From Maribacter hydrothermalis (GTDB lineage Bacteria > Bacteroidota > Bacteroidia > Flavobacteriales > Flavobacteriaceae), in the NCBI RefSeq assembly GCF_001913155.1, contig NZ_CP018760.1, positions 1,488,001 to 1,552,000 of the forward strand: a stretch of DNA of 64,000 nt, read 5' to 3'. Each line of letters begins with the position of its first letter. The first letter of the stretch is position 1. This document shows positions 33,703 to 52,897 of the stretch, piece by piece. The position numbers and the translations under genes are program-made. The notes under the pieces were generated by a model, which did no database searches, was not told where the DNA came from, and saw nothing but the letters and a program-made list of their open reading frames with translations.

Positions 33703-33774
33703 GATTATTCGTTTTTTGATTGATGATTAGCTTTCGCCAAAAACTAATTGATGATTGATGACCTAAAATTTAAG

Positions 33775-33789
33775 ACCAAATCCATGCCA
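33775..33789 (-). promoter_or_regulatory. Sigma54-like -24/-12 promoter before permease 4
   Basis: Minus strand reads TGGCATG-GATT-TGGT. The -24 block TGGCAyG and its spacing to the -12 block match TGGCACG-N4-TTGC; the -12 block keeps its G but not the final C. The TGGCA starts 87 bp before the start codon, against 85 bp for permease 6. Confidence 0.6.
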
Positions 33790-33842
33790 CACTATCAAAC
33801 AACTGTTTATCAGTTATTTACAATAAAACCTAATTTATGAAG

Positions 33843-33881
33843 TGTAAAATATTTTGACAAAAGATGTACAATATATTTACA
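33843..33881. promoter_or_regulatory. Paired 17-bp palindromes (enhancer-like) before permease 4
   Basis: TGTAAAATATTTTGACA (33843-33859) and TGTACAATATATTTACA (33865-33881), start-to-start 22 bp. The proximal centre is about 62 bp upstream of the -24 box. The same pair with the same 22-bp spacing is found before permease 6 and before the TolC gene. Confidence 0.7.
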
Positions 33882-33963
33882 AAGACTGTTTAAAAATCAG
33901 ATTGTTACACTAACATAGTATCAACTTAAAATGAATATGTATGATTTAAGAACAGCGATATAC

Positions 33964-36393
33964 TTATTCTGACCGTAAACTCTTCACCGGATTTACAACT
34001 GCCGATTTTAATGATTGTAGGCCTACCGTTAAAATGGTAATCATTAAGGCAAAAGCACCACTTATTAAGAAAACCCACCATTTTATCTCTATGCGATATG
34101 TGAAACCTTCTAACCACCTAGAAATAAAATAATAAGCAATTGGGGATGCTACTACAAATGCTATCAGCACTAGCTTTATAAAGTTCTTTGTCAATAATTT
34201 AACCACAGATTGCACACTGGCCCCCAATACTTTACGAACGCCTATTTCTTTTTTCTTTTGCTCGGCCACAAACGAGATAAGCCCAAATAAACCTAAACAG
34301 CTTATGAATATCGCTAAAATGGTAAATCCTACAGAGATTAATCCTAATCGTTTTTCTTCCTCATATAGTTTATCTATTTCTTTATCTACGAATCTATAAT
34401 CAAATGGAATATTGTTTATTGTAGACTTCCATTGCTGCTCTATACTTTGAAGTAATTGCCCATAGTTTTCAGTATTAACTTTTATAAACAACCAATTAGG
34501 CTCAGTCTCCTTATGTAAAAACAATGGTTGAATCTCTTCTTTTAATGAAGCAAAATGATAATCTTTAACAACCCCAATAATTTTTAATTCGTCTATTTCA
34601 TCTCCATAACTTTGTACCAACGTAACACTTAGAGCTTTTTCAATATCTATATTAAAAACCTTTAGCGTAGCTTCATTCACAATAATCTGGTCTACGGTAT
34701 CGGCAACATTAAAATCTCTTCCTTTCAACAACTCAATACCCATTGTATTAAAATAGCCATCACTAACACCATTACGTTTAACCACCGTTTTGCTTTCCTT
34801 ATTTCCGCCAGGTAAATAAAACCCGTTATCTGCCAACACTATTTCCGATGGTGCATAATTTCCGCTTGAAACACTTAAAACTCCCGGGACATTTAAAAAA
34901 GATGTTTTTAAAGATTCAAACTTGCTAGATGCATCTTCGGTTCCAATGCGCAATGCAAGAAGATTGTCTTTTTGGTAGCCCAAATCTTTTGTTTGGGCAT
35001 ACTTAAATTGCTGACCAATAATGATAACTGTACTAACCAAACTAATAGATACTACAAACTGGAATACCACCAATACTTTTCTAAACGTACCACTACCCGA
35101 TTGCAAAATTGCGGAACTTTTTAAAGCTTTTACAGGTTTTATGGAAGAAAGAACAATAGCAGGATAAATACCAGATGCCAAGCCTGTAACCACACCTATG
35201 GAAATAAGAATAACTACAATTTGCCACTGATAAAGGTTTACATAACTTAAACTTTCTTGTGTTAAATCATTGACCAACGGCAATAATAAAAAAACAATAG
35301 GAATACTAATGAGCATGGCGAAAATGGAAAGTAGTAGTGATTCACCTAAAAACTGCCTCATTAAAGCATTCTTACCTGCACCAACTACTTTTCTAACACC
35401 AATTTCACGTGCTCTTTTACTAGCTCTTGCCGTACTTAGATTAATAAAATTTATACATGCCACCAACTGTATAAAAAAGGCCAAACTAAGTAAAAAATAG
35501 AGATATGAACTGCTTGACACACGGTCTAGCTGATTTTTTCTACTAGCGGAATATAGATGAATGTCCGTCACCTTTTTTAATTCAAGCCTCTTATTGCTCA
35601 TACCGGCATCTTTTAAATCTTGTGCACCCCTATCCTCCATAAATTGGGGCATTTTATTTTGTAATCCTAAACCACTACTATTAGCTGTTAGCTTCACATA
35701 ACTATACACAAAATTATTGGTAGCAAAACTTGGGAAATTTTGTACGAACGTACCCATGCCCGGGGTACCCATACTTACAATGTAATTTGGATTCAAATGC
35801 GATTTATATGCCGTTTCATCATACACACCCTTTACGGTAAGGGTTAACGCATCATCTCCACTACCCCAAATAATTGCTTCACCTAAGGGACTTTTACTCC
35901 CAAATAATTTATCGGATAAATAAGAGGACAATACAACCGCATTGGGTTCATCTAACGCAGTTTTTACATCACCCTCTAAAAACTTAAACTCAAAAACTTT
36001 AAAAAAGGTTGAGTCTGCCATATATACCCTTGGTTCGTAGTATGCATTTGTACTATTTGCAGCTCTAATTAAAGTACTGTAAAATACATCAGTCAAAACA
36101 ACTCTTGTAGCCTCTTCTACCTCAGCAAAATCTTCTTTAAGTGCAAATGCAATTGGTGGTGACGAAGTTGCAGAATCAAATCCATCTTGACCATTACGCT
36201 CAATAATAGTCTCTACACGATAAATAGATTCCGCCTCATTGTGGTGCTTATCATAGCCTAACTGTGCAAACACATAAAGTAAAATAATTAAACAACTTAC
36301 AGTACCAAGTGTAAGTCCTAACAGATTAATTATTGTTTGCTGCTTATTCTTCAATAAGTTCCGCCAAGCTATTTTGATATAGTTCTTTAACAT
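33964..36393 (-). CDS. FtsX/MacB-type permease 5 of the array
   Basis: 809 residues. Starts MLKNYIKIAWRNLLKNKQQT. Coupling motifs RAREIGVRKVVGAGKNAL and QKKKEIGVRKVLGASVQSV. Tail NPVKSLRSE, the Ser variant shared with permeases 6 and 9. It begins 33 bp after the stop of permease 6, which places both in one transcript from the sigma54-like promoter at 38930. The gap after it (33703-33963) contains the permease 4 promoter region, so it is probably the last gene of its unit, although no strong terminator hairpin is seen. Confidence 0.92.
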   Translation of the reverse strand: MLKNYIKIAWRNLLKNKQQTIINLLGLTLGTVSCLIILLYVFAQLGYDKHHNEAESIYRVETIIERNGQDGFDSATSSPPIAFALKEDFAEVEEATRVVLTDVFYSTLIRAANSTNAYYEPRVYMADSTFFKVFEFKFLEGDVKTALDEPNAVVLSSYLSDKLFGSKSPLGEAIIWGSGDDALTLTVKGVYDETAYKSHLNPNYIVSMGTPGMGTFVQNFPSFATNNFVYSYVKLTANSSGLGLQNKMPQFMEDRGAQDLKDAGMSNKRLELKKVTDIHLYSASRKNQLDRVSSSSYLYFLLSLAFFIQLVACINFINLSTARASKRAREIGVRKVVGAGKNALMRQFLGESLLLSIFAMLISIPIVFLLLPLVNDLTQESLSYVNLYQWQIVVILISIGVVTGLASGIYPAIVLSSIKPVKALKSSAILQSGSGTFRKVLVVFQFVVSISLVSTVIIIGQQFKYAQTKDLGYQKDNLLALRIGTEDASSKFESLKTSFLNVPGVLSVSSGNYAPSEIVLADNGFYLPGGNKESKTVVKRNGVSDGYFNTMGIELLKGRDFNVADTVDQIIVNEATLKVFNIDIEKALSVTLVQSYGDEIDELKIIGVVKDYHFASLKEEIQPLFLHKETEPNWLFIKVNTENYGQLLQSIEQQWKSTINNIPFDYRFVDKEIDKLYEEEKRLGLISVGFTILAIFISCLGLFGLISFVAEQKKKEIGVRKVLGASVQSVVKLLTKNFIKLVLIAFVVASPIAYYFISRWLEGFTYRIEIKWWVFLISGAFALMITILTVGLQSLKSAVVNPVKSLRSE

Positions 36394-36426
36394 ATTGCTT
36401 TTTTGATTGATGAAGTTTGATGATGT

Positions 36427-38859: not shown

Positions 38860-38929
38860 GATTCTCGTTTTTTGATGCTTTATTATTAATAAAGAATGAT
38901 TGATGACACTTAGTTACTACATATCAAAT

Positions 38930-38944
38930 TCCATTTCCATGCCA
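38930..38944 (-). promoter_or_regulatory. Sigma54-like -24/-12 promoter before permease 6
   Basis: Minus strand reads TGGCATG-GAAA-TGGA, almost the same as before permease 4 (TGGCATG-GATT-TGGT). It begins 85 bp before the start codon. Confidence 0.6.
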
Positions 38945-38997
38945 CTAATACAAATTACTGATTATTAGTTAATTACAAATTTAATCAAAACATTAAG

Positions 38998-39036
38998 TGT
39001 CCAATATTTGGACGATTTGTGTCTAATATATTTACA
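38998..39036. promoter_or_regulatory. Paired 17-bp palindromes (enhancer-like) before permease 6
   Basis: TGTCCAATATTTGGACG (38998-39014) and TGTCTAATATATTTACA (39020-39036), start-to-start 22 bp; the first is a nearly perfect dyad. Proximal centre about 62 bp upstream of the -24 box, identical to the permease 4 layout. Confidence 0.7.
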
Positions 39037-39043
39037 ACTGATA

Positions 39044-41443
39044 TTACTCCGTTCGTAAACTTTTAATAGGATTAGCCCTTGCAGATTTCACAGCGTGATA
39101 ACTTACCGTAAGTATAGCCACAGACACTGCAATTAGACCCGCCAAAGCAAACACCCACCAGCTAATATCAATTTTATAGGCATACACATTCAGCCATTTA
39201 TTCATAGCGTACCACGCAAAAGGTGTTGCAATTAATATGGATATCAATACTAATCTTATAAAATCTTTTGATAACAGTGTTACGATACTGGAAACCTCGG
39301 CACCCAAAACTTTTCTTATTCCAATTTCTTTGGTGCGTAACATAGCGCTATAGGTGGCTAAACCAAACAATCCCAAACATGCTATTAAAATTGCTAAAAA
39401 GGAGAAAATGGTAAAAAGCTTTTTAAACCTAAAATCGGCTTGATACTGTTCATTGAAACTATCATCTAAAAAACTATATAAAAATGGTCTATGCGGTGCT
39501 AACTCTGCCCATTTTTGTCCAATACTGGTAATAGCTTGTTGCATATTATCTGTCTTTACTTTTAAAGAAATATACCTACCGTACTGTGAGTATCGCATGG
39601 ATAATGGTGCTACTTCTTGATGTAGCGATAAATAATTAAAATCTTTTACAACACCAACAATAGTTCCTTCTCTACCCCATTGCTGAAATTTCTTGCCAAT
39701 TATATCGGCTGGGTCAGCATAGCCAAATGTCTTAACGGCTGCTTCATTTACAATCATTGCCTGTACTGAATCTGTTACAAATTCTCTTGAGTATGCTCGT
39801 CCTGCCACTACTTCTATTTCATAATGAGGAATAAAATCAAAATCAATTTCGTACAAAAAGGGTTCAAAATGTTCCATACTCCCTTCAAAAGTTTCGATCT
39901 CTGTACCCGCTGCCGGAAAATGACTGCCCGGTACTGTTCGGGATCCCGCTACCGATATTACTTCGGGCAGATTTTTAAATTCGCTTTTTACAGTTTCTAT
40001 ATTGTCTAAAACTTGACCATCCCAATTAAAATCTATGACCAGTTGCTGCTCATTATCAAAGCCTAAATTTTTGTTTAGCATAAACCCTAATTGAAAATAA
40101 ACGATTACCGTACTCGCTATTAAAGCTATAGAGAGGCTAAACTGAAAAATTACCAAGCCTTTTCTTAGATTAACTCCTTGTGGCGATGAACTTACCAATC
40201 CTTTTAAAACACTAACAGGCTTAAAGCTAGATAATACAAACGCAGGATAACTACCTGCAAATAAACCGGTAATAATCGCTGTACCAAAATACAATGGTAA
40301 CATGAAGGAGTTAAAAACTTCATTCATATTAAACTGTTTTCCTGTAATGTTAGATAACCATGGTATACAGACAAAAACCACTACAAGCCCAATTATTGCA
40401 GCTATTAGAACCATGATTAAAGACTCACCTAAAAATTGATATACAAGTCCTTTTTTATCGGCTCCTATCACCTTTCTAACCCCTACTTCTTTTGCCCGCT
40501 CCATAGATCTTGCAGTCGCTAAATTCATAAAGTTGATACTTGCTATTACAAGAATAAAAAGTCCAATAATTGCAAAAATGTAAATGTTTGGCAGGCTGCC
40601 TACAATACCTGGTTGACGAACAGCACTGGATTTTAAGTACGCATCTTTTAGTGGCTCAAAATTAAGATTGTAGAAATATTGTTTTTCTTCTTCTGTTTGG
40701 CGCTTATCTAAAAATTCAGGCATTTTTAATTGAAAGGCATCGACATTGAAATTATCGCCTACCAAAAAATAGGTGTAAAAATCTACGTAGCCCCAAGCAT
40801 CAAAAATTTCAGGTCTAGATTGATAAAATGAACTCATAGAAAGCAATACATCAAAACTAAAATGTGAATTCTGAGGTACATCTTTCATTATACCTGTAAC
40901 TGTGTACTGCCCATCATTGGCTCTACCACCAACACCTTCAATTACTTTACCCATTGGGTCCTCATTACCAAAATATTTTTTTGCAGTGCTCTCAGTTAAC
41001 ACAATAGAATATGGTGCTTCTAAGGCAGTTCTTGGATTGCCCGAAACCAAGGGCCATGTAAATACATCAAAAACCGAAGCATCTACATAAAAGCAATCAC
41101 TTTCTTGAAAAGAATTGGAATTATATTCTAACAAAACATCTGACCTACCCGAAAATTGTACTTTCTCAACAACCTCTGAGAAATCTTCTTTAAGTGCCGA
41201 ACCAACTGGAGCATTGCCCCAAATCCATTTGTCCTTTACTTCTCCAGAACCCATATGGTGTACAACTCTATAGATATTATCTCCCTTTTCATGATAGCTA
41301 TCATATGAAAGTTCGTTGTTTATGAACATTATAATCATTAGAAAACAAGCCATGCCAATTGCTAGTCCGCCAATATTAATAATTGAATACCCTTTGTTCT
41401 TGGTAAGATTTCTCCAAGCTATTTTTAGATAATTTTTAAACAT
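39044..41443 (-). CDS. FtsX/MacB-type permease 7 of the array
   Basis: 799 residues from the ATG at 41441-41443 (MFKNYLKIAWRNLTKNKGYS). The frame continues 12 codons upstream (MEGARGRKKKRI), but these lie in the CCCCCTCC palindromic repeat and every paralogue starts at M(F/I/L)(K/R)N, so I reject that start. Coupling motifs RAKEVGVRKVIGADKKGL and LRTKEIGIRKVLGAEVSSI. Tail NPIKSLRTE. Probably the last gene of the transcript from the TolC promoter, since the permease 6 promoter region begins directly after its stop. Its stop codon lies 8 bp from the distal palindrome. Confidence 0.92.
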   Translation of the reverse strand: MFKNYLKIAWRNLTKNKGYSIINIGGLAIGMACFLMIIMFINNELSYDSYHEKGDNIYRVVHHMGSGEVKDKWIWGNAPVGSALKEDFSEVVEKVQFSGRSDVLLEYNSNSFQESDCFYVDASVFDVFTWPLVSGNPRTALEAPYSIVLTESTAKKYFGNEDPMGKVIEGVGGRANDGQYTVTGIMKDVPQNSHFSFDVLLSMSSFYQSRPEIFDAWGYVDFYTYFLVGDNFNVDAFQLKMPEFLDKRQTEEEKQYFYNLNFEPLKDAYLKSSAVRQPGIVGSLPNIYIFAIIGLFILVIASINFMNLATARSMERAKEVGVRKVIGADKKGLVYQFLGESLIMVLIAAIIGLVVVFVCIPWLSNITGKQFNMNEVFNSFMLPLYFGTAIITGLFAGSYPAFVLSSFKPVSVLKGLVSSSPQGVNLRKGLVIFQFSLSIALIASTVIVYFQLGFMLNKNLGFDNEQQLVIDFNWDGQVLDNIETVKSEFKNLPEVISVAGSRTVPGSHFPAAGTEIETFEGSMEHFEPFLYEIDFDFIPHYEIEVVAGRAYSREFVTDSVQAMIVNEAAVKTFGYADPADIIGKKFQQWGREGTIVGVVKDFNYLSLHQEVAPLSMRYSQYGRYISLKVKTDNMQQAITSIGQKWAELAPHRPFLYSFLDDSFNEQYQADFRFKKLFTIFSFLAILIACLGLFGLATYSAMLRTKEIGIRKVLGAEVSSIVTLLSKDFIRLVLISILIATPFAWYAMNKWLNVYAYKIDISWWVFALAGLIAVSVAILTVSYHAVKSARANPIKSLRTE

Positions 41444-41460
41444 AATTCTCTTTTTTTTCC

Positions 41461-41536
41461 TCCCCCTAGCCCCCTCCAAAGGAGGGGGAATGGCTTGGTG
41501 TTTATTATTTACTCCCTTCCCTTCGGGAAGGGTTGG
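41461..41536. repeat. CCCCCTCC palindromic repeat between permeases 7 and 8
   Basis: A palindrome with arms CCCCCTCC and GGAGGGGG around AAA, then TGGCTTGGTG, then a second palindrome CCCTTCCC-TTC-GGGAAGGG and a GGGATTTTACTCC end. The same composite recurs at 44038 and, in part, at 48975. It separates two permease genes without breaking either; it may form mRNA hairpins. Confidence 0.85.
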
Positions 41537-41546
41537 GGATGGGATT

Positions 41547-44021
41547 TTACTCCGTGCGTAAACTCTTTATAGGATTTACAATTGCCGCTTTTATTGCTTG
41601 AAACCCCATTGTTATCATTGCAATGACTAAAGCCATACCACCAGATAATAGAAACACCCACCAAGGAATGTCAATTTTATATGCAAAATCTTGCAACCAT
41701 TTATCCATAAAATACCATGCAACAGGTGACGCAATCAACATGGCAATTACAATTACCTTCACAAAATCGCTGGCAAGCAATTGTACTATTTCGGCAATGC
41801 TTGCACCCAAAACTTTTCTTATTCCAATTTCCTTTGTTTTTTGCTGGGCGTTGAATGCTATTAAACCTAATAAGCCCATACAAGCAATAAATATGGTCAA
41901 GAATGAAAACACACCAAACAAATTTGCTTGTCTCTTGTCGGATATATACCCGGTGTTTAAATCATCGTCTAGAAAAGAATATTCAAAAGGAACATTAGGT
42001 TGATAGGCATTCCATTTATTCTCAATGGCGGACATCAATTTCCCAATATTATCAGATTTTACTTTTAAGGTGATATATGAAACACCCGTATCATAACTTT
42101 CTGAAGTATTCGAGAATAGAGCAAATGGTGTAATGTGACTATGCAGCGACTCTAAATTAAAATCTTTTAAAACACCAACAACTTTATACGATTCCATTCT
42201 ACCACCAGGATACTGAATCATGCTTCCAATGGGGTTTTCCCATCCTATTTGTTTTGCCGCGGCTTCATTAATTACTACGGATAAGGAATCATTAAAATTG
42301 GTATCAAAACCTCTACCTTCTATCAGCTTTAAGTCTAAGGTTGACATAAAATGCTCATCAACCAAAAAGGACTGTAATGAAATGTCTTTTGCAATATTAT
42401 CTTCGGTATTACTTGCTTCTGGAGTGTAAAAGTCCCCAAAATTGCCCCTTGTAATCATTCCCGATGAAATGGCCGCACTTTTTACTTCAGATAAAGCTTC
42501 TAGTTCTGACCTAAATGTTTCTTCACTACTACCTAATTTTTCTGTGTTTTGTAGCACCAATAAGTTCTCTTTATCATATCCTAAATCACGATTTTGTGTA
42601 TAGTTTAGTTGCAGATATACAATACTGGTGGCGATAATCATAATTATAGCCACCGTAAACTGAAAGACCACCAATCCGTTTCTAACGAATCCACTTTTAC
42701 TGTTAGATACTTTTGATACTCCTTTTAACACATTTACCGCTTTGAACGAAGTCAGATAAAATGCCGGGTAGATGCCCGCCAAAAGTGCAGTCAGCAAACT
42801 AAGACCAATAATAAATAACCAAATACCATTTTCAAAAATGGAATTGAAAGAGATTGTTTTACCTGCCAATTGATTGAAAAATGGTAATAATATCCAAACC
42901 AATAACACAGCCAAAAGTGTAGATACCGCGGTATAAAAAATGGCTTCCGCTAGAAACTGTTTTATAAGCTGAACTCTAGGTGAACCCAGTACTTTTCGAA
43001 TGCCAATTTCTTTACTTCTTTTTGCCGCTTGCGCCGTCGCTAAATTGACAAAATTAACCGAGGCAAGTATTATAATAAAAAACGCAATTATCGCAAAAAT
43101 ATACAAGTTTTTAATATTGTTTTGCTCTGAGATTACAGATTCTATTTCACCAGAATGTAAATGAATATCGGTTAAAGGCTGTAAGTGTAAATCCCATTTA
43201 TTACCATTTTCTAAAAACTCTTCGTAAGGCTGACCTATTCTGTCAAAAGCGTTTGCCGCATGTACTCTTATCAATTCTGGAAACTGGGATTCTAAATGAG
43301 CAATTGCATTGGGGTTCGCAGCTGCTTTATCGGTCAACTTTACATATGTCGCCATTTGTAGCCATACCCAGCTCCAATTAAAACGTTTTACATTTTCAAA
43401 ATTAGAGACAGGTACTAACATATCAAATTTTACAGATGCATGTAGATTGCTCATGTCCTCTAATACTCCGGTAACTTTCAATGGTTTTCTTTCCTTACCA
43501 TAGAAAAGAATTTTACCTAATGGATTAACATCTCCAAAATATTTCTTCGCAATACTGTTGGTTACAACTACACTATTTTCATCTTGAAGACTACTTTTTG
43601 GGTCACCTTTTAACATTGGATAACTTAACACTTCTAAAAAGTTGGCATCTACTGCAAAAACATTTTCTTCATTAAAAATTTGTTTTTCTGTACCGTTAGA
43701 ATACTCAAGAACATCTACGCCTGGTCTATAAATACGGGTATAACTTTCAATCTCCGGGAAATTGGCAACCAGTGTTTCGCCCGCTGGAGGGGGAGTGTAA
43801 CCAGCATAGAACTCACCATCGCCCATTTTACCATTTAAATTAACCCGATACACTTGGTCGGCATCATTAAAAAATTGGTCGTAACTTAATTCGTCGGTTA
43901 CAAAAAGGGCTATCAAAATAACACAGGTCAACCCAATTGCCAATCCAGATATATTGATGATGCTATTGCTCTTATATCTAAATGCATTTCTAAAAGCTAT
44001 TTTAAAATTGTTTTTAAACAT
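41547..44021 (-). CDS. FtsX/MacB-type permease 8 of the array
   Basis: 824 residues, the longest of the set. Starts MFKNNFKIAFRNAFRYKSNS. Coupling motifs RSKEIGIRKVLGSPRVQL and QKTKEIGIRKVLGASIAEI. Tail NPIKSLRTE. It lies between two copies of the CCCCCTCC composite repeat (41461 and 44038), which could promote recombination that duplicates or deletes exactly this gene. Leader AAAAAAACGAGAATC before the ATG. Intact. Confidence 0.92.
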   Translation of the reverse strand: MFKNNFKIAFRNAFRYKSNSIINISGLAIGLTCVILIALFVTDELSYDQFFNDADQVYRVNLNGKMGDGEFYAGYTPPPAGETLVANFPEIESYTRIYRPGVDVLEYSNGTEKQIFNEENVFAVDANFLEVLSYPMLKGDPKSSLQDENSVVVTNSIAKKYFGDVNPLGKILFYGKERKPLKVTGVLEDMSNLHASVKFDMLVPVSNFENVKRFNWSWVWLQMATYVKLTDKAAANPNAIAHLESQFPELIRVHAANAFDRIGQPYEEFLENGNKWDLHLQPLTDIHLHSGEIESVISEQNNIKNLYIFAIIAFFIIILASVNFVNLATAQAAKRSKEIGIRKVLGSPRVQLIKQFLAEAIFYTAVSTLLAVLLVWILLPFFNQLAGKTISFNSIFENGIWLFIIGLSLLTALLAGIYPAFYLTSFKAVNVLKGVSKVSNSKSGFVRNGLVVFQFTVAIIMIIATSIVYLQLNYTQNRDLGYDKENLLVLQNTEKLGSSEETFRSELEALSEVKSAAISSGMITRGNFGDFYTPEASNTEDNIAKDISLQSFLVDEHFMSTLDLKLIEGRGFDTNFNDSLSVVINEAAAKQIGWENPIGSMIQYPGGRMESYKVVGVLKDFNLESLHSHITPFALFSNTSESYDTGVSYITLKVKSDNIGKLMSAIENKWNAYQPNVPFEYSFLDDDLNTGYISDKRQANLFGVFSFLTIFIACMGLLGLIAFNAQQKTKEIGIRKVLGASIAEIVQLLASDFVKVIVIAMLIASPVAWYFMDKWLQDFAYKIDIPWWVFLLSGGMALVIAMITMGFQAIKAAIVNPIKSLRTE

Positions 44022-44037
44022 GATTCTCGTTTTTTTC

Positions 44038-44146
44038 CTCCCCTAACCCCCTCCAATACTTCGGCTACGCTCAGCACAAGTGGAGGGGGAATGGCTTGGT
44101 GATTATTATTGACTCCCTTCCCTTCGGGAAGGGCTGGGGATGGGAT
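44038..44146. repeat. CCCCCTCC palindromic repeat interrupted by a TTCGGCTACGCTCAG element
   Basis: Same composite as at 41461, but the loop of the first palindrome contains an extra segment of about 24 bp with CTTCGGCTACGCTCAG, which also occurs as an inverted repeat at 49954-50011. The rest (TGGCTTGGTG, CCCTTCCC-TTC-GGGAAGGG) is kept. Confidence 0.85.
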
Positions 44147-44147
44147 T

Positions 44148-46496
44148 TTACTCCGACCGTAAACTCTTTACAGGATTTACCCTTGCTGCATTGATAGCTT
44201 GAAAACTGATAGTAAATAAAGCTATTAGTATTGCCACTGCCCCAGCTATAACAAATGCCCAAGCATTAATGGTTACACGATATGCATACCCTTCTAACCA
44301 GTTTTGCATCAGTAGCCATGCAATGGGTATAGCGATGATTATTGCCATGAACACCAAGCGCATAAAATCTTTAGACAACAAGCCTACTATTCCTGTAATG
44401 CTAGAGCCTAATACTTTACGCACTCCTATTTCTTTTCTACGTTGGTCTGCTGTAAAGGCTGATAAGCCGAACAACCCTAAACAAGAAATTAGAATGGCAA
44501 GCAGTGCGAATACCTGAGAGAGATTACCTATCAACTTTTCACTTTTAAACTTGGCATCATAGGTGTCATCAACAAATTCATACTCGAAAGGAAAAGCGGA
44601 ATTAAACTTTTTCAATGATGCCTCCATTGTAGCCAATGCCGCTGTTGTTGCTACGCCCGGCTTCGCTTTTACATACATAAAACGCCCTTGGCTTGGGTCA
44701 TTAAAAAATATGACCGGGTCACTAGAACCGTACATGTCGTCATAGACATAATCTTTTACTACGCCAATTACCGGGTAATCTTCTTCTATAGTTTTACCAA
44801 TAACGCTGCCGCTCCCCATTAATTTTGCGAACGATTCACTAACAATTATATTGACACTATCTTGAGCGGGATTGTTACTAAATCCTCGTCCTTCAATGAT
44901 TTCCAAGCCAGCAGTGTTAAAAAAATCTGCCGTAATATCACGTACAGACACCAATACATCTTCTGTATCTACACCGCCTTGCCAACTTAATCCCGATGTA
45001 TTATTTCCGCCGGATAAAATATCGGAATTAATGAGTCCGATGCTTTCTATCATCCCTGTAGTTTTCATGTCTGCTTCTATCGGGTTGAAGTTTTTAATCA
45101 TATCTCCGGTAACAGGAATCTTCACTAGGTTTTCTTTATTGTAACCCAGATCGCGCCCCTTTACATGTTGTACTTGTTGGTAGACGATAATAGTACATAT
45201 GATAAATACGATGGATACTACAAATTGTGTCGCTACCAATCCTTTTCTAATAAACGATGCGCTGCCTTTTGTTCTGCGTGCTCCTTTCAACACATCTACA
45301 GGTCTAAAAGAAGACAAATAGAACGCCGGATACCAACCTGCTACCAATCCGCATATCAGGGTAATTCCCAATAGTACTGCTATATGAATAGGATTGAACA
45401 GACTAAAGTCTAGCTGTTTATCTATCATCATATTAAACTGGGGCACCAATAATTTTAACAACACCACACTTAGTACAGCAGATAATGTTGCCGTGATGAT
45501 AGCTTCTGCCATGAACTGAGAAATCAAGCCTTTTCTTCCTGAGCCTAATACCTTTCGTACACCCACTTCATTTGCTCGTTTTTCACTTCTAGCCGTAGCT
45601 AAGTTCATAAAGTTGATACAGGCAATTAATAGAATAATTATGGCGATTAGGCTAAACAGTCTTACATAAGTTATTTGCCCTCCTATATTTTTACCTCCCT
45701 CAAATACCGACTTTAAATGCCAGTCTTTCATAGAAAATAAAAAGGCGATTGTTTCGTCATCTTCCGTTTTCATAGGAAGTATTGCTTTTACTTTCCTATT
45801 GACAACATCAAAATTTGCTTCGGGAGAAAGTTCCACAAAAGTGTCTGAAAAATTGGCTCCGTACTCCTTTACCCATTCATTATCTTGTGCAAACCGCTCA
45901 AATGGAACAACCCAGTCAAAACTATAGGTTACATTGTGCGGCAAATCTTCATAAACTCCTGAAACGGTGTAACTCTCTAAGTTGTTTATTTTAATTACCT
46001 TGTTAATGGCTGAAGTATTTTCCCCAAATAATTGGGTAGCCGTTTCTTGTGAGATGACCATGGCATCTACATCATTAAAAGCGGTTTCTAAATTACCTTC
46101 TACGAATGAGAGACTGAACATGCTCAAAAAGTCCGGATCTGCATATCGCCCAAATTTATTGATGGACGTTTCTCCTACTTGAAATAAAAAATCTTCTCCT
46201 TTTGTTCGTGCAGACCCAACAATGCCTGGCACTTCAACTTTTAAAACTTCTGCTAACGGACCGGGAGTCGCCTGAAAAAATGTACGCCATTCCCCTTCGT
46301 ACTCTTGATTGGTCGGTACATAATACACTACATCTTGCTTCTCAAAATTAGCATCATAACCAACCTCATCTTCTACCCAAAGCAAAATCGTTGCAGCACA
46401 GGTAATGCCTATTGCCAAACCAAATATATTCAGCATGCTATAGCCTTTGTTCTTCCAAAGGTTTCGCCAAGCGATTTTTATATAGTTCTTTATCAT
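44148..46496 (-). CDS. FtsX/MacB-type permease 9 of the array
   Basis: 782 residues from the ATG at 46494-46496 (MIKNYIKIAWRNLWKNKGYS); a start 15 codons upstream is possible but breaks the family pattern. Coupling motifs RANEVGVRKVLGSGRKGL and QRRKEIGVRKVLGSSITGI. Tail NPVKSLRSE. Leader AAAAAGAACATT. It follows permease 10 by 45 bp on the same strand. Full duplicated fold, no damage. Confidence 0.92.
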   Translation of the reverse strand: MIKNYIKIAWRNLWKNKGYSMLNIFGLAIGITCAATILLWVEDEVGYDANFEKQDVVYYVPTNQEYEGEWRTFFQATPGPLAEVLKVEVPGIVGSARTKGEDFLFQVGETSINKFGRYADPDFLSMFSLSFVEGNLETAFNDVDAMVISQETATQLFGENTSAINKVIKINNLESYTVSGVYEDLPHNVTYSFDWVVPFERFAQDNEWVKEYGANFSDTFVELSPEANFDVVNRKVKAILPMKTEDDETIAFLFSMKDWHLKSVFEGGKNIGGQITYVRLFSLIAIIILLIACINFMNLATARSEKRANEVGVRKVLGSGRKGLISQFMAEAIITATLSAVLSVVLLKLLVPQFNMMIDKQLDFSLFNPIHIAVLLGITLICGLVAGWYPAFYLSSFRPVDVLKGARRTKGSASFIRKGLVATQFVVSIVFIICTIIVYQQVQHVKGRDLGYNKENLVKIPVTGDMIKNFNPIEADMKTTGMIESIGLINSDILSGGNNTSGLSWQGGVDTEDVLVSVRDITADFFNTAGLEIIEGRGFSNNPAQDSVNIIVSESFAKLMGSGSVIGKTIEEDYPVIGVVKDYVYDDMYGSSDPVIFFNDPSQGRFMYVKAKPGVATTAALATMEASLKKFNSAFPFEYEFVDDTYDAKFKSEKLIGNLSQVFALLAILISCLGLFGLSAFTADQRRKEIGVRKVLGSSITGIVGLLSKDFMRLVFMAIIIAIPIAWLLMQNWLEGYAYRVTINAWAFVIAGAVAILIALFTISFQAINAARVNPVKSLRSE

Positions 46497-46541
46497 AATG
46501 TTCTTTTTACTCCCTTTAGAGAAGGAATGAGGATTAGACAA

Positions 46542-48959
46542 TTATTCTTTGCGTAAACTTTTTAATGGCTGTATTAATGCTGCACCAACGGACTGATAAC
46601 TTATCGTCAGTATGGCAATAGTCAGCGCTATACACGCAGCAACAAAAAATATGCTCCAACCAATGGTGATATGATAGGCGAAATCTTCTAACCATCGGCT
46701 CATCATAAACCAACCCACAGGAATGGCAATTACGATGGACACCAAAATAAGCTTCATAAAATCTAGCGTGAGCAATTTGTAAATGCTTTTGAAAGGCGCA
46801 CCTAATACCAAGCGGATACTGATTTCCTTTTTGCGTTGATCTACCATAAAGGCGGACAATGCAAACAAACCTAAACAAGCGACCAATATGGCGAATAGTG
46901 CAAAGCTGTTGAATATTTTTCCCATGCGTTCAACATCATCATGCATGCGACTGAATTCTTGGTCTAAAAAGCTGTAGTTAATAGATTGACTAGGAACATT
47001 CTTATCCCAAACCGATGCTATAGATGCCAATGCCTCATTCACATTTCCTTTCTCCAATTTTAGTGATATAGCCCCTAAATCTTTGCCGATTACTAATGAC
47101 AATGACGAGATATCTTCTTTTAAAGATTTAAAATGAAAATCATCTACCACACCAATTACGGTGAATAATTGCCCGTTATTATTTATTTCCTTACCAACTG
47201 CATTATCCAAGCCAAGCTCTCGCTGCATTTTGGTATTAATTATAATAGAATTCAAAGAATCTGAAGCAAATTGTCTAGAAAAATCCCTGCCTGATTTTAC
47301 GGTAATTCCTAAGGTCTTAATATAATCGTAATCTACTCTCCAAATTTGGGCAGGTATGCCTCTACCTTCCTGACCTTCGTCTTTTCGTCTAAATGTATTA
47401 CCGTTTCTGCTGCCGCCATCTACCGGTAAATAATTAGATATGGTCGCCGATTTTACTTGTGGCAATTGCAGTAATTGTTCTTTAAAATTTTCGGCATTAT
47501 TTCCTAAAACTCCGGTTCCTTCAAGAACAACCACTTGTTCTTTATCATACCCCAATTCCTTTTCAAGAATGAAATCCATCTGCTGATAAATAATCAATGT
47601 GGCAATTATTAAAATCACCGATGTGGTAAATTGAAAAATAACGAGTCCGCTTCTTAATTTTCCGCTTTTACTACCAATACTCAAACTTCCTTTTAAAACG
47701 TTCACCGGTTTAAAGGCCGATAAATAAAATGCCGGATATAAGCCCGCCAGTGAACCTACTACAAGCGCGGCAACTAAAATGATAGGTATAAACCACCCTG
47801 CCGACCATGGCATTTCTATAGTTTTTGATGCGATGGCATTAAAAGAAGGTAACAATGCCCATGCTAGTAATACACCAAGTATAAATGACACAAAACTGAA
47901 CAAGATAGATTCTGTCATGAACTGAGTTACCAAATTGCTTTTGTATGCTCCAATAGTCTTTCTAAGCCCTACTTCTTTTGCTCTGTTTGCTGATTTTGCA
48001 GTAGAAAGATTTATAAAATTGATAACCGCTAGTAGCAATACAAAGCCGGCAACGGCTGCAAAAAGCCAAATAAAACGTATATCGCCATGTTTTAGACCAT
48101 CTGCCATTTTAATGTCCGAATACAGATGAATATCTGTTATCGGCTGCAATTTATATTCCATGGTTCTTAGCACTTCGATAAAATCCGGTGCGCGACCTCG
48201 TTCTTTTTGTGCTGGAATGATATAATCTTCAACTATAGAAACCATTTTTTGCTCCAGTTGTTGAATATCAGTATTGGGGTCTACTAAAACATAAGTGAAG
48301 TAATTCTGGTTCGTCCAACTTGCATTGGTATCTTCTATAGGAAGTAAAAAATCGTACGTTACATGTGAATTTTTTGGTGCGTCATTCATTACGCCGGTTA
48401 CGGTATAAGGCGTACTCGCATCATTATCCAAAATAATGGTTTCCCCTATAATTTTCCCATCTTTAAAATATTTTGCTGCTTTAGATTCTGAGATGACTAT
48501 ACTCTTCGGATTTACCAATGCTGTGTTGGCATTACCTTGTTCGAGCTGAACTTCTAAAATCTCAAATGCTTCTTGGTCTGCAAGTAGAAATCCGTCTTCT
48601 AGATTGTTTTGTGTCTCTCCTGCTAATCGGATACCACGTTTACCTGCTCCAAATATTCCTGTTGAATTTACTTTTCCTGCTTTTATGATTTCAGGAAAAT
48701 CGCTTTGTAAGGCATCTGCAAAAGGCAGTTGAAAATGTGTACTTTTCATTACTTCACCCTTATACATACCCTCTAACACTACCCTGTACATTTGATTCTT
48801 ATTGGCGTAGTGTTGATCATAACCCACCTCGTTGCGAATGAACAATGCTATCAAAAGACAGGCTGCTATACCAACAGCGAAACCGCCAATTTTAATGGCG
48901 GCAAAAAGCTTGTCTTTCTTTAAACTTCTCCAAGCAATTTTAAGATGGTTTCTAAACAT
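46542..48959 (-). CDS. FtsX/MacB-type permease 10, most divergent of the array
   Basis: 805 residues from the ATG at 48957-48959 (MFRNHLKIAWRSLKKDKLFA); the 12 upstream codons MEGARGRKNQKI fall in the palindromic repeat. First coupling motif RAKEVGLRKTIGAYKSNL is normal, but the second reads QRKKEISIRLVLGAPFKSI where the nine others have (I/V)G(I/V)RK(V/I)(L/V)G. The tail is QPLKSLRKE rather than NP(V/I)KSLR(T/S)E. It is the permease closest to the second ATPase, 208 bp away across a repeat-rich gap. It may interact differently with its ATPase. Confidence 0.9.
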   Translation of the reverse strand: MFRNHLKIAWRSLKKDKLFAAIKIGGFAVGIAACLLIALFIRNEVGYDQHYANKNQMYRVVLEGMYKGEVMKSTHFQLPFADALQSDFPEIIKAGKVNSTGIFGAGKRGIRLAGETQNNLEDGFLLADQEAFEILEVQLEQGNANTALVNPKSIVISESKAAKYFKDGKIIGETIILDNDASTPYTVTGVMNDAPKNSHVTYDFLLPIEDTNASWTNQNYFTYVLVDPNTDIQQLEQKMVSIVEDYIIPAQKERGRAPDFIEVLRTMEYKLQPITDIHLYSDIKMADGLKHGDIRFIWLFAAVAGFVLLLAVINFINLSTAKSANRAKEVGLRKTIGAYKSNLVTQFMTESILFSFVSFILGVLLAWALLPSFNAIASKTIEMPWSAGWFIPIILVAALVVGSLAGLYPAFYLSAFKPVNVLKGSLSIGSKSGKLRSGLVIFQFTTSVILIIATLIIYQQMDFILEKELGYDKEQVVVLEGTGVLGNNAENFKEQLLQLPQVKSATISNYLPVDGGSRNGNTFRRKDEGQEGRGIPAQIWRVDYDYIKTLGITVKSGRDFSRQFASDSLNSIIINTKMQRELGLDNAVGKEINNNGQLFTVIGVVDDFHFKSLKEDISSLSLVIGKDLGAISLKLEKGNVNEALASIASVWDKNVPSQSINYSFLDQEFSRMHDDVERMGKIFNSFALFAILVACLGLFALSAFMVDQRKKEISIRLVLGAPFKSIYKLLTLDFMKLILVSIVIAIPVGWFMMSRWLEDFAYHITIGWSIFFVAACIALTIAILTISYQSVGAALIQPLKSLRKE

Positions 48960-48974
48960 GATTTTTTGATTTTT

Positions 48975-49010
48975 CCTCCCCCTAGCCCCCTCCAAAGGAG
49001 GGGGAATGGT
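48975..49010. repeat. CCCCCTCC palindromic repeat before permease 10
   Basis: Third copy of the CCCCCTCC-AAA-GGAGGGGG palindrome, here without the second CCCTTCCC palindrome and followed by GATTGATTGATT. The remainder of the gap to 49167 holds a TTCGACTCCGCTC fragment and a CCCCTTTCGGGGG hairpin near 49144-49156; no gene is seen in it. Confidence 0.8.
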
Positions 49011-49167
49011 TAGGTGATTGATTGATTGACTATACTTTATTATCCGTGATTAAGGGATAAGTTTGGTTTTCGGTTGATTTGTCTTCGACTCCGCTCTGTG
49101 AACAAAATTGATAATTGATTGATAAATAAACTCTTTTTTTAAAACCCCTTTCGGGGGCATGGGGGAT

Positions 49168-49863
49168 CTACATCATAGCACCGATTGCTCGGTTCTGACT
49201 TTCTGTTACTATTTGACCATCGAATAGATTTACTACCCTGTGCGCATAATGCGAATCTCTGTCAGAGTGCGTTACCATAACTATTGTGGTTCCCTCTTGG
49301 TTTAATTCGGTTAATAGGTTCATTACCTCTATTCCGTTTTTAGAATCTAAGTTACCTGTTGGCTCATCGGCTAATATTAATTTCGGATTAGTTACTACTG
49401 CTCTAGATATGGCTACACGTTGTTGTTGACCACCTGATAATTGCTGCGGAAAATGCTTTTCCCTATGTGCTATTTTCATACGCTCTAGCACTTTCATTAC
49501 TTTTTCCTTACGCTCTGCTTTACCCATTTTTAAATAGATTAATGGTAGCTCTACATTTTCAAATACCGTAAGTTCATCGATAAGATTAAAGCTTTGAAAA
49601 ACAAACCCTAAATTCCCTTTTCGTAATTGTGTACGCTGACTCTCTTTTAGTCCGCCTACTTCATTACCGGCAAAATTGTAGCTGCCATCAGTAGGATTGT
49701 CCAACATTCCAATAATGTTCAATAGGGTAGATTTACCACAACCAGAAGGACCCATGATGGCGACAAACTCGCCATCCTCCACTTTTAGGTTGACATTGTT
49801 TAATGCCAAGGTTTCTACTTCTTCTGTTCTAAAACTTTTTTTAAGATTTGTAATGGTTATCAT
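49168..49863 (-). CDS. ABC transporter ATPase, MacB/LolD type, head of permease array
   Basis: 231 residues. Walker A GPSGCGKST (38-46), Q-loop FVFQSFNLIDELTV, signature LSGGQQQRVAISRAVV, Walker B LILADEPTGNLDS, switch His in VTHSD. All residues are canonical, unlike the ATPase at 23176. It lies between the HlyD adaptor gene and permease 10, as in MacAB-like operons. The likely role is to energise permeases 7-10 and perhaps all ten. Between it and the HlyD gene is a 148-bp gap with an inverted repeat. Confidence 0.93.
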   Translation of the reverse strand: MITITNLKKSFRTEEVETLALNNVNLKVEDGEFVAIMGPSGCGKSTLLNIIGMLDNPTDGSYNFAGNEVGGLKESQRTQLRKGNLGFVFQSFNLIDELTVFENVELPLIYLKMGKAERKEKVMKVLERMKIAHREKHFPQQLSGGQQQRVAISRAVVTNPKLILADEPTGNLDSKNGIEVMNLLTELNQEGTTIVMVTHSDRDSHYAHRVVNLFDGQIVTESQNRAIGAMM

Positions 49864-49953
49864 ATTACTGTTATTTTGATTGTTATAATGACACCGAGTT
49901 TCCCCAGATGTGACAGTTTTTTATTTTAATAGTATTCTCTCGTCCTTTTACCC

Positions 49954-50011
49954 CTTCGGCTACGCTCAGGGTTCGAAACTGAACTCTATTGGTAGCTGAG
50001 CGAAGCCGAAG
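49954..50011. repeat. Inverted repeat CTTCGGCTACGCTCAG between adaptor and ATPase genes
   Basis: CTTCGGCTACGCTCAG (49954-49969) and CTGAGCGAAGCCGAAG (49996-50011): 15 of 16 bases pair, loop 26 bp. The right arm abuts the HlyD stop codon. It could be a transcription-attenuating or mRNA-stabilising hairpin; a copy of one arm interrupts the repeat at 44038. Confidence 0.85.
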
Positions 50012-51262
50012 CTATTTTAATACTATTCTTTCGGCCTCTCCGAAATTATCATAGTTACTTGTAATTACTTTTTCGCCAGGTTCTAAACCTTCTAACACTT
50101 CATAGAATCTAGAATTCTGCTTTCCTATTCTAATGTTTCTCTTAATTGCTTCTCCTCCATCAGGATTCACAACAAAAATCCATTGTCCACCAGTGCTTTG
50201 AAAGAAACTTCCTTTTGGTAATAAAAGTGCATCGTTAGATTCTCCCAATTGCAATTTAATATTGTAACTCTGTCCCGAACGGATGGTCTCTGGCTTGTTA
50301 TCGGTAAATACCAAATCCACCTTAAATCTTCCATTTCTTACCTCTGGATATACTTTTCGTAATCGCAATGGAAATTCGGTACCGTTACGTTCTAAAACCG
50401 CTACTAAATCTCTTTTTACTCTGTCAATGTAGTGCTCATCAATATCAGCCTCAATCTTAAAATCCGTCAGTACGTTTATTTGACCAATTCGTTGTCCTTG
50501 AGCAATACTTTGACCAATTTCAGCATCTAAAAATCCTAATTGACCATCTGCAGGAGCGCGCACATTTAAATGATCTAGTCTTTGGTACACCATTCCTAAG
50601 GTTTTATGCATACGTGCTAAATCGGTATCTAAACCCTTTAATGATGTTTTTCGTAATTCATCATCTTGTTCGGTTTGTAGCTTTACAATTTCATATTGTT
50701 TTTGAGATAATTCATAGTTTTCTTTTGATAACTGAAACGCTTCTCTAGAAATTAATTCATCATCGAACAATGCTTTGTTCTGCTCATAATTTCTCTTTAA
50801 ACGTTGTAAATCTGTACTTGCTGTCGCCAATGATTTTCTACCTTCCACTTGTCTAGAATCGAAATTTAATTTCGTGGAACGCAAATCGTTTTGCTTCAAA
50901 GCCAAGTTACTTTCACTAGCCAAAATCTGCTCGTACAAGTTCATGTTTTCTAACTTTAAGATGATGTCTCCTTTTTTCACCATGGCACCTTCTTCTATCA
51001 ATTTCTCGCTTACACGGCCACCTTCATAGGCATCCATATAAATAGTGGCTATTGGCGCTACATTACCGTTAATTGTTATGTAGTCATCAAATTTATCGGC
51101 TGTAACTTCAGCGATTGAAAGCTTATCTTTTTCTGTTCTAAAAGTTGATACGGAACTTGCAAACAATAGTTGATACCCAACAAATAATAGCAATACACCT
51201 AATGCAATGTAGCCGAAGTGTTTTGGCTTAAGTCCTTTTTTCTTTTCTAATTTTATATCCAT
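50012..51262 (-). CDS. HlyD/MacA-family periplasmic adaptor
   Basis: 416 residues. One membrane helix (about 17-36, FGYIALGVLLLFVGYQLLFAS) anchors it in the inner membrane. Lipoyl half-motifs flank a helical hairpin (about 105-220): GGRVSEKLIEEGAMVKKGDIILKLEN and VRAPADGQLGFLDAEIGQSIAQG. Beta-barrel and membrane-proximal domains follow, ending GLEPGEKVITSNYDNFGEAERI. It would bridge the permeases to the TolC-like channel. It is the only adaptor gene of the whole ten-permease array. 87 bp separate it from the TolC gene, with heptamer repeats in between. Confidence 0.93.
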   Translation of the reverse strand: MDIKLEKKKGLKPKHFGYIALGVLLLFVGYQLLFASSVSTFRTEKDKLSIAEVTADKFDDYITINGNVAPIATIYMDAYEGGRVSEKLIEEGAMVKKGDIILKLENMNLYEQILASESNLALKQNDLRSTKLNFDSRQVEGRKSLATASTDLQRLKRNYEQNKALFDDELISREAFQLSKENYELSQKQYEIVKLQTEQDDELRKTSLKGLDTDLARMHKTLGMVYQRLDHLNVRAPADGQLGFLDAEIGQSIAQGQRIGQINVLTDFKIEADIDEHYIDRVKRDLVAVLERNGTEFPLRLRKVYPEVRNGRFKVDLVFTDNKPETIRSGQSYNIKLQLGESNDALLLPKGSFFQSTGGQWIFVVNPDGGEAIKRNIRIGKQNSRFYEVLEGLEPGEKVITSNYDNFGEAERIVLK

Positions 51263-51269
51263 CTTATTT

Positions 51270-51290
51270 CGTTGTTCGTTGTTCGTTGTT
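51270..51290. repeat. Heptanucleotide tandem repeat, 3 x CGTTGTT
   Basis: Three perfect copies followed by degenerate GGTTGAT, CGTGTTCGTTGTTCGTG. It lies 8 bp upstream of the HlyD start codon and so would be transcribed in its leader. Confidence 0.8.
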
Positions 51291-51349
51291 GGTTGATCGT
51301 GTTCGTTGTTCGTGCTTTTTAATTCCTACTTAATACTATGTACTTAATA

Positions 51350-52696
51350 CTAATCTATATTGAATACCGGTAATCCTCTGTAGAAATCTAATGTGCTTTT
51401 ATTGATTTCTGAACGAAGTTTTACTTGCAAATTTTCATTCTGTGCACTGGCGTATAAATTTTTGGCGGTAAACAACTCTAAGGCATTTATCAATCCTTTT
51501 TCATATCGTTTTTGTGCAATGGTGAATGCTAAATTCTGAGCATCCATTTTCTGATTGCTCTGTACCAATTCTACCAGTAAAGAATTATAATCTTGCACTA
51601 ATTTTTGTATGGCTTGAAATAATTCTTGCTCTTGCGTTTTTAAATTATTCTCAGCTCGAAGCTTTTCTATTTTAGATTGCTTTACTCTCGACCTTGCAGA
51701 CCAGCCATTACTAATCGGTACATTTAAATTCACACCAATATATTGTGATGTATTATCTCTAAACTGTTCCCTAAAAGGTAATGTATTCCCTAAAGTATCT
51801 CTAAAAGTTTCGAAATACCCAGTACCGATACCTGCAAAGAACGAGAGGGAAGGATATAGACTCCCTCTTGATACCGCAACTTGCTTTTTAGCCGCTTTCG
51901 CTCTAAATTCTTGTGCTTTTATCATTGGTATAAAATCCCTTGCTTCATTATAAACAGAATCAGATTTCATTTCTTGACTCTCAAATACAGAAACAATTTC
52001 TTTTAAATCTTTTTGAATTGCTATTTCCGATGTATTCTCCAAATTCATTTCTTGAATCAAAGTTAATTTTGCTGCCGCCAATTGGTTTTTACTTTGGGTA
52101 ACATTCAACTTATCGGTCAATAATAAAGATTCTGCCTCGTACAAATCCGCACCAGCTTTTAATCCTAATTCTACCTGCTTTTCTACTAAATTGTAATTCG
52201 ATTGTGATACGGCTAACTGCTCTTTTGATATTTCTACCAACCCCTCGAAAAACTGAATATCATAAAAAGCTTGCATTACTCTAAATGCCAACAAATATTT
52301 TTGCTGTAATACTTCTTCTTGCGTTGCTTTGTACAACAACTTAGATGCCTTTATAGAATTAATTTTCTGAAATCCTTGAAACAAATCAATAGATGATTCT
52401 AAGGAATAGTTATTGGAGTAAAAATCTTGATTTACATATGTACCTGTATTTGGGTCTTCTGCCCTACCATAATTAATACTATAATTACCGCTTGCATTAA
52501 CAGATGGCAATAGGTTGCGAACCGACTGTCGGTACGTTTCTCTGTTAGATTGGTTGGTGTATTTAAAGTCGTTTAACTGTAAATTATGCTCTAATGCAAA
52601 AGCAACACATTTATCTAATGTCCAAATTTCTTGCGCAATTATAGACCCCCAAATAGAGAGTAGTAAAAGTGTCGTTATTTTAAATTTTTGATTCAT
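51350..52696 (-). CDS. TolC-like outer-membrane efflux protein
   Basis: 448 residues. Signal peptide about 1-21 (ending SIIAQ). Two outer-membrane-efflux (OEP) repeats with long helices: TLDKCVAFALEHNLQLNDFKY at the start, the paired AYDIQFFEGLVEIS and NLVEKQVELGLKAGADLYEAES, and in the second half KLRAENNLKTQEQELFQAIQKLVQDYNSL with KRYEKGLINALELFTAKN. It should form the trimeric exit channel. First gene on the minus strand of the array, with the sigma54-like promoter at 52723-52737 upstream. Confidence 0.93.
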   Translation of the reverse strand: MNQKFKITTLLLLSIWGSIIAQEIWTLDKCVAFALEHNLQLNDFKYTNQSNRETYRQSVRNLLPSVNASGNYSINYGRAEDPNTGTYVNQDFYSNNYSLESSIDLFQGFQKINSIKASKLLYKATQEEVLQQKYLLAFRVMQAFYDIQFFEGLVEISKEQLAVSQSNYNLVEKQVELGLKAGADLYEAESLLLTDKLNVTQSKNQLAAAKLTLIQEMNLENTSEIAIQKDLKEIVSVFESQEMKSDSVYNEARDFIPMIKAQEFRAKAAKKQVAVSRGSLYPSLSFFAGIGTGYFETFRDTLGNTLPFREQFRDNTSQYIGVNLNVPISNGWSARSRVKQSKIEKLRAENNLKTQEQELFQAIQKLVQDYNSLLVELVQSNQKMDAQNLAFTIAQKRYEKGLINALELFTAKNLYASAQNENLQVKLRSEINKSTLDFYRGLPVFNID

Positions 52697-52722
52697 TTCT
52701 TAATTGGTATGCCATTCTCTAT

Positions 52723-52737
52723 ACTATATACGTGCCA
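52723..52737 (-). promoter_or_regulatory. Sigma54-like -24/-12 promoter before the TolC gene
   Basis: Minus strand reads TGGCACG-TATA-TAGT. The -24 block TGGCACG is a perfect consensus match and the 4-base spacer is right; the -12 block (TAGT for TTGC) is weak. The predicted start of transcription is about 16 bp before the TolC start codon. Confidence 0.6.
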
Positions 52738-52800
52738 TAATTTTAAAATATTGATTAACAGTTAGTTATATTAAAATAAAACTTAGCTTTAAATTTTTAG

Positions 52801-52839
52801 TGTAAAAATGTTGTACATATAATGTCAAATATTTTTACA
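52801..52839. promoter_or_regulatory. Paired 17-bp palindromes (enhancer-like) between TolC and regulator genes
   Basis: TGTAAAAATGTTGTACA (52801-52817) and TGTCAAATATTTTTACA (52823-52839), start-to-start 22 bp. They lie between the TolC gene and the divergent NtrC-type regulator gene, so they could also serve autoregulation. Proximal centre about 72 bp upstream of the -24 box. Confidence 0.7.
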
Positions 52840-52897
52840 GTACTATGAAAATACAAACTTCTATGTGTAGATTTAAATGAGTTAATAGATTGTTACC

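Follow-up and report, generated by a model that had tools for sequence, protein, structure and literature searches.

A shared module in three gaps of a permease array

How the many parts of an export system could be brought under one control is the question that this locus raises. In the window, which is the whole 64-kb stretch of Maribacter hydrothermalis DNA analyzed here, a regulator gene and a kinase gene face genes for an outer-membrane (OMP) factor, an HlyD-type adaptor, an ABC ATPase, ten MacB/FtsX permeases and a second ATPase. A whole-genome search found MacB_PCD in every array permease. The genes and units are as follows.

52898-54262, plus strand: NtrC-type response regulator (receiver, Sigma54_activat, HTH_8; GSFTDA), the proposed dyad binder
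54262-55608, plus strand: histidine kinase (HATPase_c, PAS), with two N-terminal hydrophobic stretches by hydropathy
39044-52696, minus strand: unit 1, outer-membrane factor, HlyD-type adaptor, ABC ATPase ABC1 and permeases P10-P7
33964-38859, minus strand: unit 2, permeases P6 and P5
23176-33702, minus strand: unit 3, permeases P4-P1 and the second ABC ATPase, ABC2

By reading and by script scan, each of the gaps 52697-52897, 38860-39043 and 33703-33963 was found to hold two 17-bp dyads and a minus-strand -24/-12 sigma54-type element. This confirms a sequence-only reading of the same DNA, which had described paired 17-bp dyads 22 bp apart with a minus-strand TGGCAY element in three gaps. The elements lie at the following positions.

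52801-52817, no strand: dyad of module 1, promoter-proximal, TGTAAAAATGTTGTACA
52823-52839, no strand: dyad of module 1, promoter-distal, TGTCAAATATTTTTACA
52744-52768, minus strand: IHF-like element of module 1, TAACTAACTGTTAATCAATATTTTA
52724-52737, minus strand: -24/-12 element of module 1, before the OMP gene, TGGCACGTATATAG
52708-52714, minus strand: second TGGCATA of module 1, 23 bp downstream of the first
38998-39014, no strand: dyad of module 2, TGTCCAATATTTGGACG
39020-39036, no strand: dyad of module 2, TGTCTAATATATTTACA
38951-38975, minus strand: IHF-like element of module 2
38931-38944, minus strand: -24/-12 element of module 2, before permease P6, TGGCATGGAAATGG
33843-33859, no strand: dyad of module 3, TGTAAAATATTTTGACA
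33865-33881, no strand: dyad of module 3, TGTACAATATATTTACA
33796-33820, minus strand: IHF-like element of module 3
33776-33789, minus strand: -24/-12 element of module 3, before permease P4, TGGCATGGATTTGG

The start-to-start dyad spacing is 22 bp in all three modules. From the T of TGGCA to the near dyad edge, the distance is 64 bp in the OMP gap and 54 bp before both P6 and P4, so that the 60-75 bp given by the earlier reading holds for the dyad centres but not for the near edge. The dyad at 38998 ends in ACG in place of the expected ACA, and the 39-bp pair of module 3 is identical in a genome of the same genus (G075). As the reading had also claimed for the remaining permease gaps, the ten other intergenic gaps of the array contained neither a dyad (best score 0.4 versus 17-23) nor TGGCAY when scanned. 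At a score of at least 9, the dyad matrix returned seven sites across the 64-kb window, six of them being the dyads and the seventh lying at 24300.

The sigma54 -24/-12 consensus has TGGCAY, with its GG at a fixed distance from the G of the -12 half, which reads TTGC. The -24 half found here is TGGCAY with GG at the consensus distance from the -12 G. The -12 half is T-V-G instead of TTGC, the middle base being T in 6 and the G being followed by C in 15 of the 67 modules of the geometry set described below. We therefore call these promoters sigma54-type, as the -24 half is canonical and the -12 half is not. A second TGGCAY(A) occurs 22-24 bp below the -24 element in 13/18 main gaps and 21/67 modules, roughly where transcription would be expected to start. 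On the plus strand, TAG[ACT]TTT lies close to the regulator start in 18/18 gaps (52868-52874 here), a count without a control; it may serve the regulator gene as a housekeeping -7 box.

Each unit is thus preceded by a putative promoter, in line with the three co-regulated units proposed earlier. In the two inner gaps, the only terminator call was the dyad stem at 38998-39014, and the gap at 33.7 kb gave none. As no separate terminator was called there, transcription probably continues from one unit into the next, which may make the units nested; the division of the array into three is suggested by the promoters alone. The stem call would also suit a reading in which the palindromes end transcription, or form RNA hairpins, between permease genes. 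However, the called stem is the dyad itself and has no counterpart in the gap at 33.7 kb. The dyads lie upstream of their own promoter, paired at a fixed spacing, and copies are found in the divergent gap as well as ahead of permeases elsewhere. We therefore rejected the terminator reading, which has almost nothing left to recommend it.

Specificity of the paired dyads in the genome

Using the fuller pair pattern with up to two mismatches, we found exactly three sites in the 4.27-Mb genome, which are the three modules, and none in the control. An exact search for TGT-N11-ACA-N5-TGT-N11-ACA gave two sites, both in these gaps; the third module differs from this bare pair by one mismatch, a level common to five other genomic sites. 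Looser patterns showed no such restriction. The bare pair with up to two mismatches was not enriched genome-wide (164 versus 190 in the reversed control), and neither were single palindromes at the same tolerance on the forward strand (242 versus 249). The exact single palindrome matched four times in 4.27 Mb, always inside the gaps from which the pattern had been derived. Since single palindromes stay at the control level, specificity is confined to the well-matched pair, and the two looser patterns, being no better than the reversed control, were dropped as genome-wide tests. The genome-wide palindrome search proposed with the earlier reading therefore fails for single palindromes and succeeds for the full pair, which is restricted to the three gaps.

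Conservation of the module in the family

We searched 149 family genomes, including the own genome, and defined orthologous loci by a kinase of at least 40% identity, which 19 genomes possess. The regulator and kinase are kept in all 19 loci, and the channel, adaptor and ABC1 are kept as well in the 18 complete ones. By the bare definition (six bases per dyad, 6+6), tandem dyads with 0-2 mismatches of 12 occupy the OMP/regulator gap in 18/19 loci; the remaining one, G037, is unreadable since its contig stops 72 bp before the regulator. In the main gaps of these 18 loci, TGGCAY or CGGCAT lies 63-66 bp from the dyads.

A dyad matrix trained on the 18 main gaps, which come from related and hence not independent genomes, was then used to scan regions of ~40 kb. 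It located 12 inner modules, spread over nine of the 18 regions (G000 included). By best blastp match, these modules precede P4-type (3), P6-type (4) and other permeases (2), or ABC2 (3). One shuffle of the 722 kb yielded 0 pairs. The fuller pattern occurs in 18/19 genomes with a kinase orthologue, a count that is partly circular as the pattern was drawn from the sites of those 18 loci, versus 2/130 genomes without the orthologue; its reversed control matched 1/149 genomes (G057). All 149 genomes have rpoN (sigma54), so a missing sigma54 is not the reason for absence of the module.

Promoter phasing and a middle element

To describe the geometry, we used 74 distinct pairs with a score of at least 22 and a spacing of 22. 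In 67/74 of them, YGGCAY-N7-G lies at 53-56 bp (11 pairs) or 62-66 bp (56 pairs), and the interval of 57-61 bp is empty. When both flanks were searched from 0 to 130 bp, 87 and 115 were the only promoter distances beyond these two classes. The two distance classes are one helical turn apart.

Alignment on TGGCA revealed a third element, TAA-N4-YTGAT-W-ATCAR-N4-TTR, which spans -31 to -7 relative to the T. The IHF site consensus is WATCARNNNNTTR, which we take to be matched by the right half of this middle element. With up to one mismatch, the consensus occurs at one fixed position in 41/67 modules (14 of them exact; shuffled mean 0.2), and the mirror half occurs at its position in 44/67 (shuffles 0.2-0.3). 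An 11-bp core with up to two mismatches is present in 5/11 modules of the 53-56 class and 45/56 of the 62-66 class. The own genome has two HU/IHF-fold genes. We predict that the middle element is an IHF-type bending site.

In the own genome, the middle element followed by the promoter, at up to three mismatches, marks three sites, the three modules. A general sigma54 role for the element was discarded, as it is paired with -24/-12 at these modules only. A scan of G135 for the same combination gave zero matches. G018 has the middle element and -24/-12 without these dyads at three sites (C3:239570, C1:920523 and C1:927389). Two of them share the stretch L269 (G018:C1:918000-931000) with two large GAFTGA-type regulator genes, and perhaps belong to a second regulon. 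L270 likewise carries the middle element and -24/-12 with these dyads absent.

The regulator, its contact loop and its recognition helix

The regulator at 52898 has the domains of the NtrC group, i.e. a receiver, a Sigma54_activat AAA+ domain and a Fis-type HTH. Its sigma54-contact loop reads GSFTDA, where the usual form is GAFTGA. The altered loop is typical of these loci, with G[AS]FTDA in 18 and GAFTDS in 1 of the 19. Among the named loci, which are the best 80 among the matches listed and have a readable regulator in 76, matching frames gave G[AS]FTD[AS] in 75/76 and GAFTGA in one. Other regulators of the own genome have GAFTGA (two) or GAFTSA (one). A Desulfovibrio study, in its accessible text, counts both GAFTDA (as in DVU2106) and GSFTGA among the loop variants that would remain active (PMC4641369). 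In the available part of another report, NorR G266D is active without its signal (PMC2941729), and a third, as far as its accessible text goes, did not recover sigma54 in a pull-down with VfmH, whose loop is GAFTDA (PMC10714721). The double change in GSFTDA would thus have a partial precedent, in single changes only, and counts to some degree against sigma54 activation.

We compared the recognition helices of the named loci with their operators, omitting six loci with other helices (two of which have the module). Regulators with an RQT-type helix have the dyad pair near the promoter in 41/49 loci, the other eight lacking the module, and those with an R[TAS]SLYRR-type helix have it in 0/21. A different, CG dyad, TGTNCGNNNTCGNAC, lies within 150 bp of TGGCAY in 14/23 SLYRR loci (two SALYRR helices being added here) and in 0/49 RQT loci. 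As the CG motif was written after reading 14 SLYRR gaps, the first count is partly circular and the second is not. In 11 of the 14, the CG dyad starts 100-104 bp from TGGCAY; the outer edge of the dyads in the OMP gap lies at 102. Exact-test values for these comparisons overstate independence, because the loci are related by descent. Judged from the sequences, helix and dyad change together between two sister regulator clades, and the CG dyads of the sister regulators are a natural change of the predicted operator.

The SLYRR-type loci fall among L166-L220 (e.g. L186:8390-8635). Across L158-L220, the AA/TT module was found in 26/63 loci at a spacing of 21-23 bp (one at 20), versus 0 in reversed sequence and 0-1 in five Markov sets. 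All these loci except L162 (Algibacter) are outside the flavobacterial set, and they include Bacteroides and Parabacteroides.

These results bear on whether the dyads are bound by another dimeric regulator, e.g. a repressor, that travels with the locus while the response regulator acts elsewhere. The unusual GSFTDA loop would fit this reading, and because regulator, kinase, channel, adaptor and ATPase co-occur, co-occurrence at the genome level cannot single out the regulator. In two sister clades, however, a change of the dyad goes with a change of the response regulator's recognition helix, and the pairs are phased to -24/-12 and avoid 57-61 bp, as an activator bound on a fixed face would. 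We consider a separate dyad-binding protein improbable. Given the distribution, the promoter phasing and the recognition-helix link, the dyads are very probably the enhancers of the regulator at 52898, as predicted. This enhancer reading, already offered from the sequence alone, is supported by the 18/19 loci, the 2/130 genomes, the phasing and the helix-dyad co-change. We are accordingly confident, short of certainty, in a wider prediction: the modules would be sigma54 promoters with enhancers bound by this regulator, which would switch on the exporter core and the permease groups.

Modules and permeases away from the locus

Off-locus pairs were collected in genomes with the kinase orthologue at a score of at least 22, leaving out G037:C106 and the G120:C5 cluster. 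This gave 19 pairs in five genomes (G018 13, G104 2, G120 2, G129 1 and G050 1). A long MacB/FtsX permease gene follows directly in 16/19 cases, and the complete YGGCAY-N7-G element is present in 15/19. The three exceptions are L124, next to an unknown protein, and two sites in L122, close to genes for DUF2807 and DUF2268 proteins. Three further pairs with scores of 24-27, two overlapping ones in G053 and one in G092, were dropped because orthologue, nearby TGGCAY and permease are all absent. Weak matches with three mismatches (L136-L140) were likewise set aside, having pair scores <20 and no permease.

The module was absent upstream of 16 other long permeases, among those listed: ten in G018 (L251-L260) and six in G000, G104, G120 and G129 (L263-L268). 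An ABC1-like ATPase adjoins six of the 16 (L259, L263, L264, L265, L267 and L268). The module therefore marks a subset of the permeases, mostly those without their own ATPase. In one of the stretches, L252:834-930, the permease has one dyad 64 bp from TGGCACGGATTTGG (TGGCAC) and lacks the second dyad, possibly a half module. L264 (G104:C1:249900-251300), away from the locus and without a module, has a P4-type permease (74%) accompanied by an ABC1-like ATPase (81%) of its own; the exporter core may be duplicated here. The 5.3-Mb genome G018 has at least 84 MacB_PCD matches, many of them in one long-permease array on contig C2.

A blastp search with the window's proteins found no ABC1- or ABC2-like gene beside the off-locus pairs within the 8-19 kb covered per site, a range that an unlinked partner would escape. 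This leaves room for a reading in which the module is real and bound by the regulator, and the scattered permeases are independent transporters or receptors that share only its control. Such independence is compatible with the enhancer reading, so that the odds of the two need not sum to one. ABC1, however, is 71-100% identical across loci whose permeases number from 1 to >10, which fits one ATPase serving many, and we regard independent permeases as rather unlikely.

A model for the proposed regulon

The module, its geometry, its distribution and its link to the recognition helix are read directly from the sequences, and binding, phosphorylation, looping, IHF-type bending and the sharing of one ATPase core by scattered permeases are what we infer from them. 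In the model, the kinase would phosphorylate the regulator, whose dimers would bind the two dyads and assemble on the tandem sites. The DNA between enhancer and promoter would bend at the IHF-like site, and the AAA+ ring would act on sigma54 polymerase poised at TGGCAY-N7-G. Activation would turn on the exporter core (outer-membrane channel, adaptor and ATPase), and the inner copies of the module would turn on two permease groups. As the modules of relatives precede permeases elsewhere, each permease unit would bring its own enhancer-promoter and join one regulon.

The signal may enter through the kinase. Intramembrane-sensing kinases are defined by two TM helices with an extracytoplasmic loop of <25 aa. 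The window's kinase, the only one analyzed in this way, has by hydropathy two TM segments and a short loop: its hydrophobic 15-residue windows cover residues 5-31 and 31-51, with hardly any loop between. No HisKA match was found in it at E 0.001, and it has 90% identity to the kinase of Maribacter litoralis. BceS-like intramembrane-sensing kinases, as far as the accessible literature describes them, likewise have two hydrophobic stretches, a very short loop and adjacent FtsX-type permease genes, but their partner regulator class differs from the NtrC-type regulator here. It is our guess that the permeases are the sensory partner of the kinase.

Relation to known systems and significance

The regulons of NtrC, NifA and NorR have paired enhancers and an IHF site. 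Like NtrC-type sigma54 regulons, the present system has a receiver-AAA+-Fis HTH regulator, paired upstream dyads, a -24/-12 element and an IHF-type consensus between them, and as a whole it appears to work like an NtrC-type enhancer system. It differs in the GSFTDA loop, the T-V-G at -12, the one-turn steps in distance and a regulon made up mostly of one permease family. For COG0577 FtsX-like permeases of Bacteroidia, sigma54 promoters have been predicted and termed the first evidence for this transporter family; the accessible text of that survey names neither enhancer sites nor a regulator or a dispersed regulon for them, and it treats GAFTGA as invariant (PMC12316311). Judged by titles or the opening of abstracts, none of the papers listed deals with the enhancers or permease regulon of this regulator.

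The two permeases and the ATPases that were scanned matched best to NCBIfam families of ADOP permeases and the darobactin exporter (TIGR03434, NF038008 and NF038007), all below the curated cut-offs. The two permeases scored 302 and 318 versus 622 bits, and 96 and 168 versus 700; ABC1 scored 302 versus 375. For the two of ten permeases scanned, the cut-off for ADOP membership was thus not reached.

Four features are new: a portable cassette, dyad-promoter spacing in steps of one helical turn, a middle element at a constant position, and a recognition helix that changes together with its predicted operator. More tentatively, and with the odds somewhat against it, they may belong to an old, Bacteroidota-wide export system. 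One energised core would serve exchangeable permeases with portable enhancer-IHF-sigma54 cassettes, and different recognition helices would read two or more operator codes (AA/TT and CG among them). The GxFTDA loop would match the T-V-G at -12, and the kinase would perhaps sense the permeases.

Sigma54 control in Bacteroidota seems little studied, with one survey among the papers found touching on the subject. For the regulator described here, an operator code is predicted, a candidate regulon is defined and promoter geometry follows a simple rule, and its sister regulators offer a natural pair with altered recognition helix and operator. Given the GxFTDA loop, pipelines that require GAFTGA could overlook this class of regulator. 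The results suggest how a paralogous permease family may spread over the chromosome yet stay under one control, and how one regulator could turn on the whole set of export parts together.
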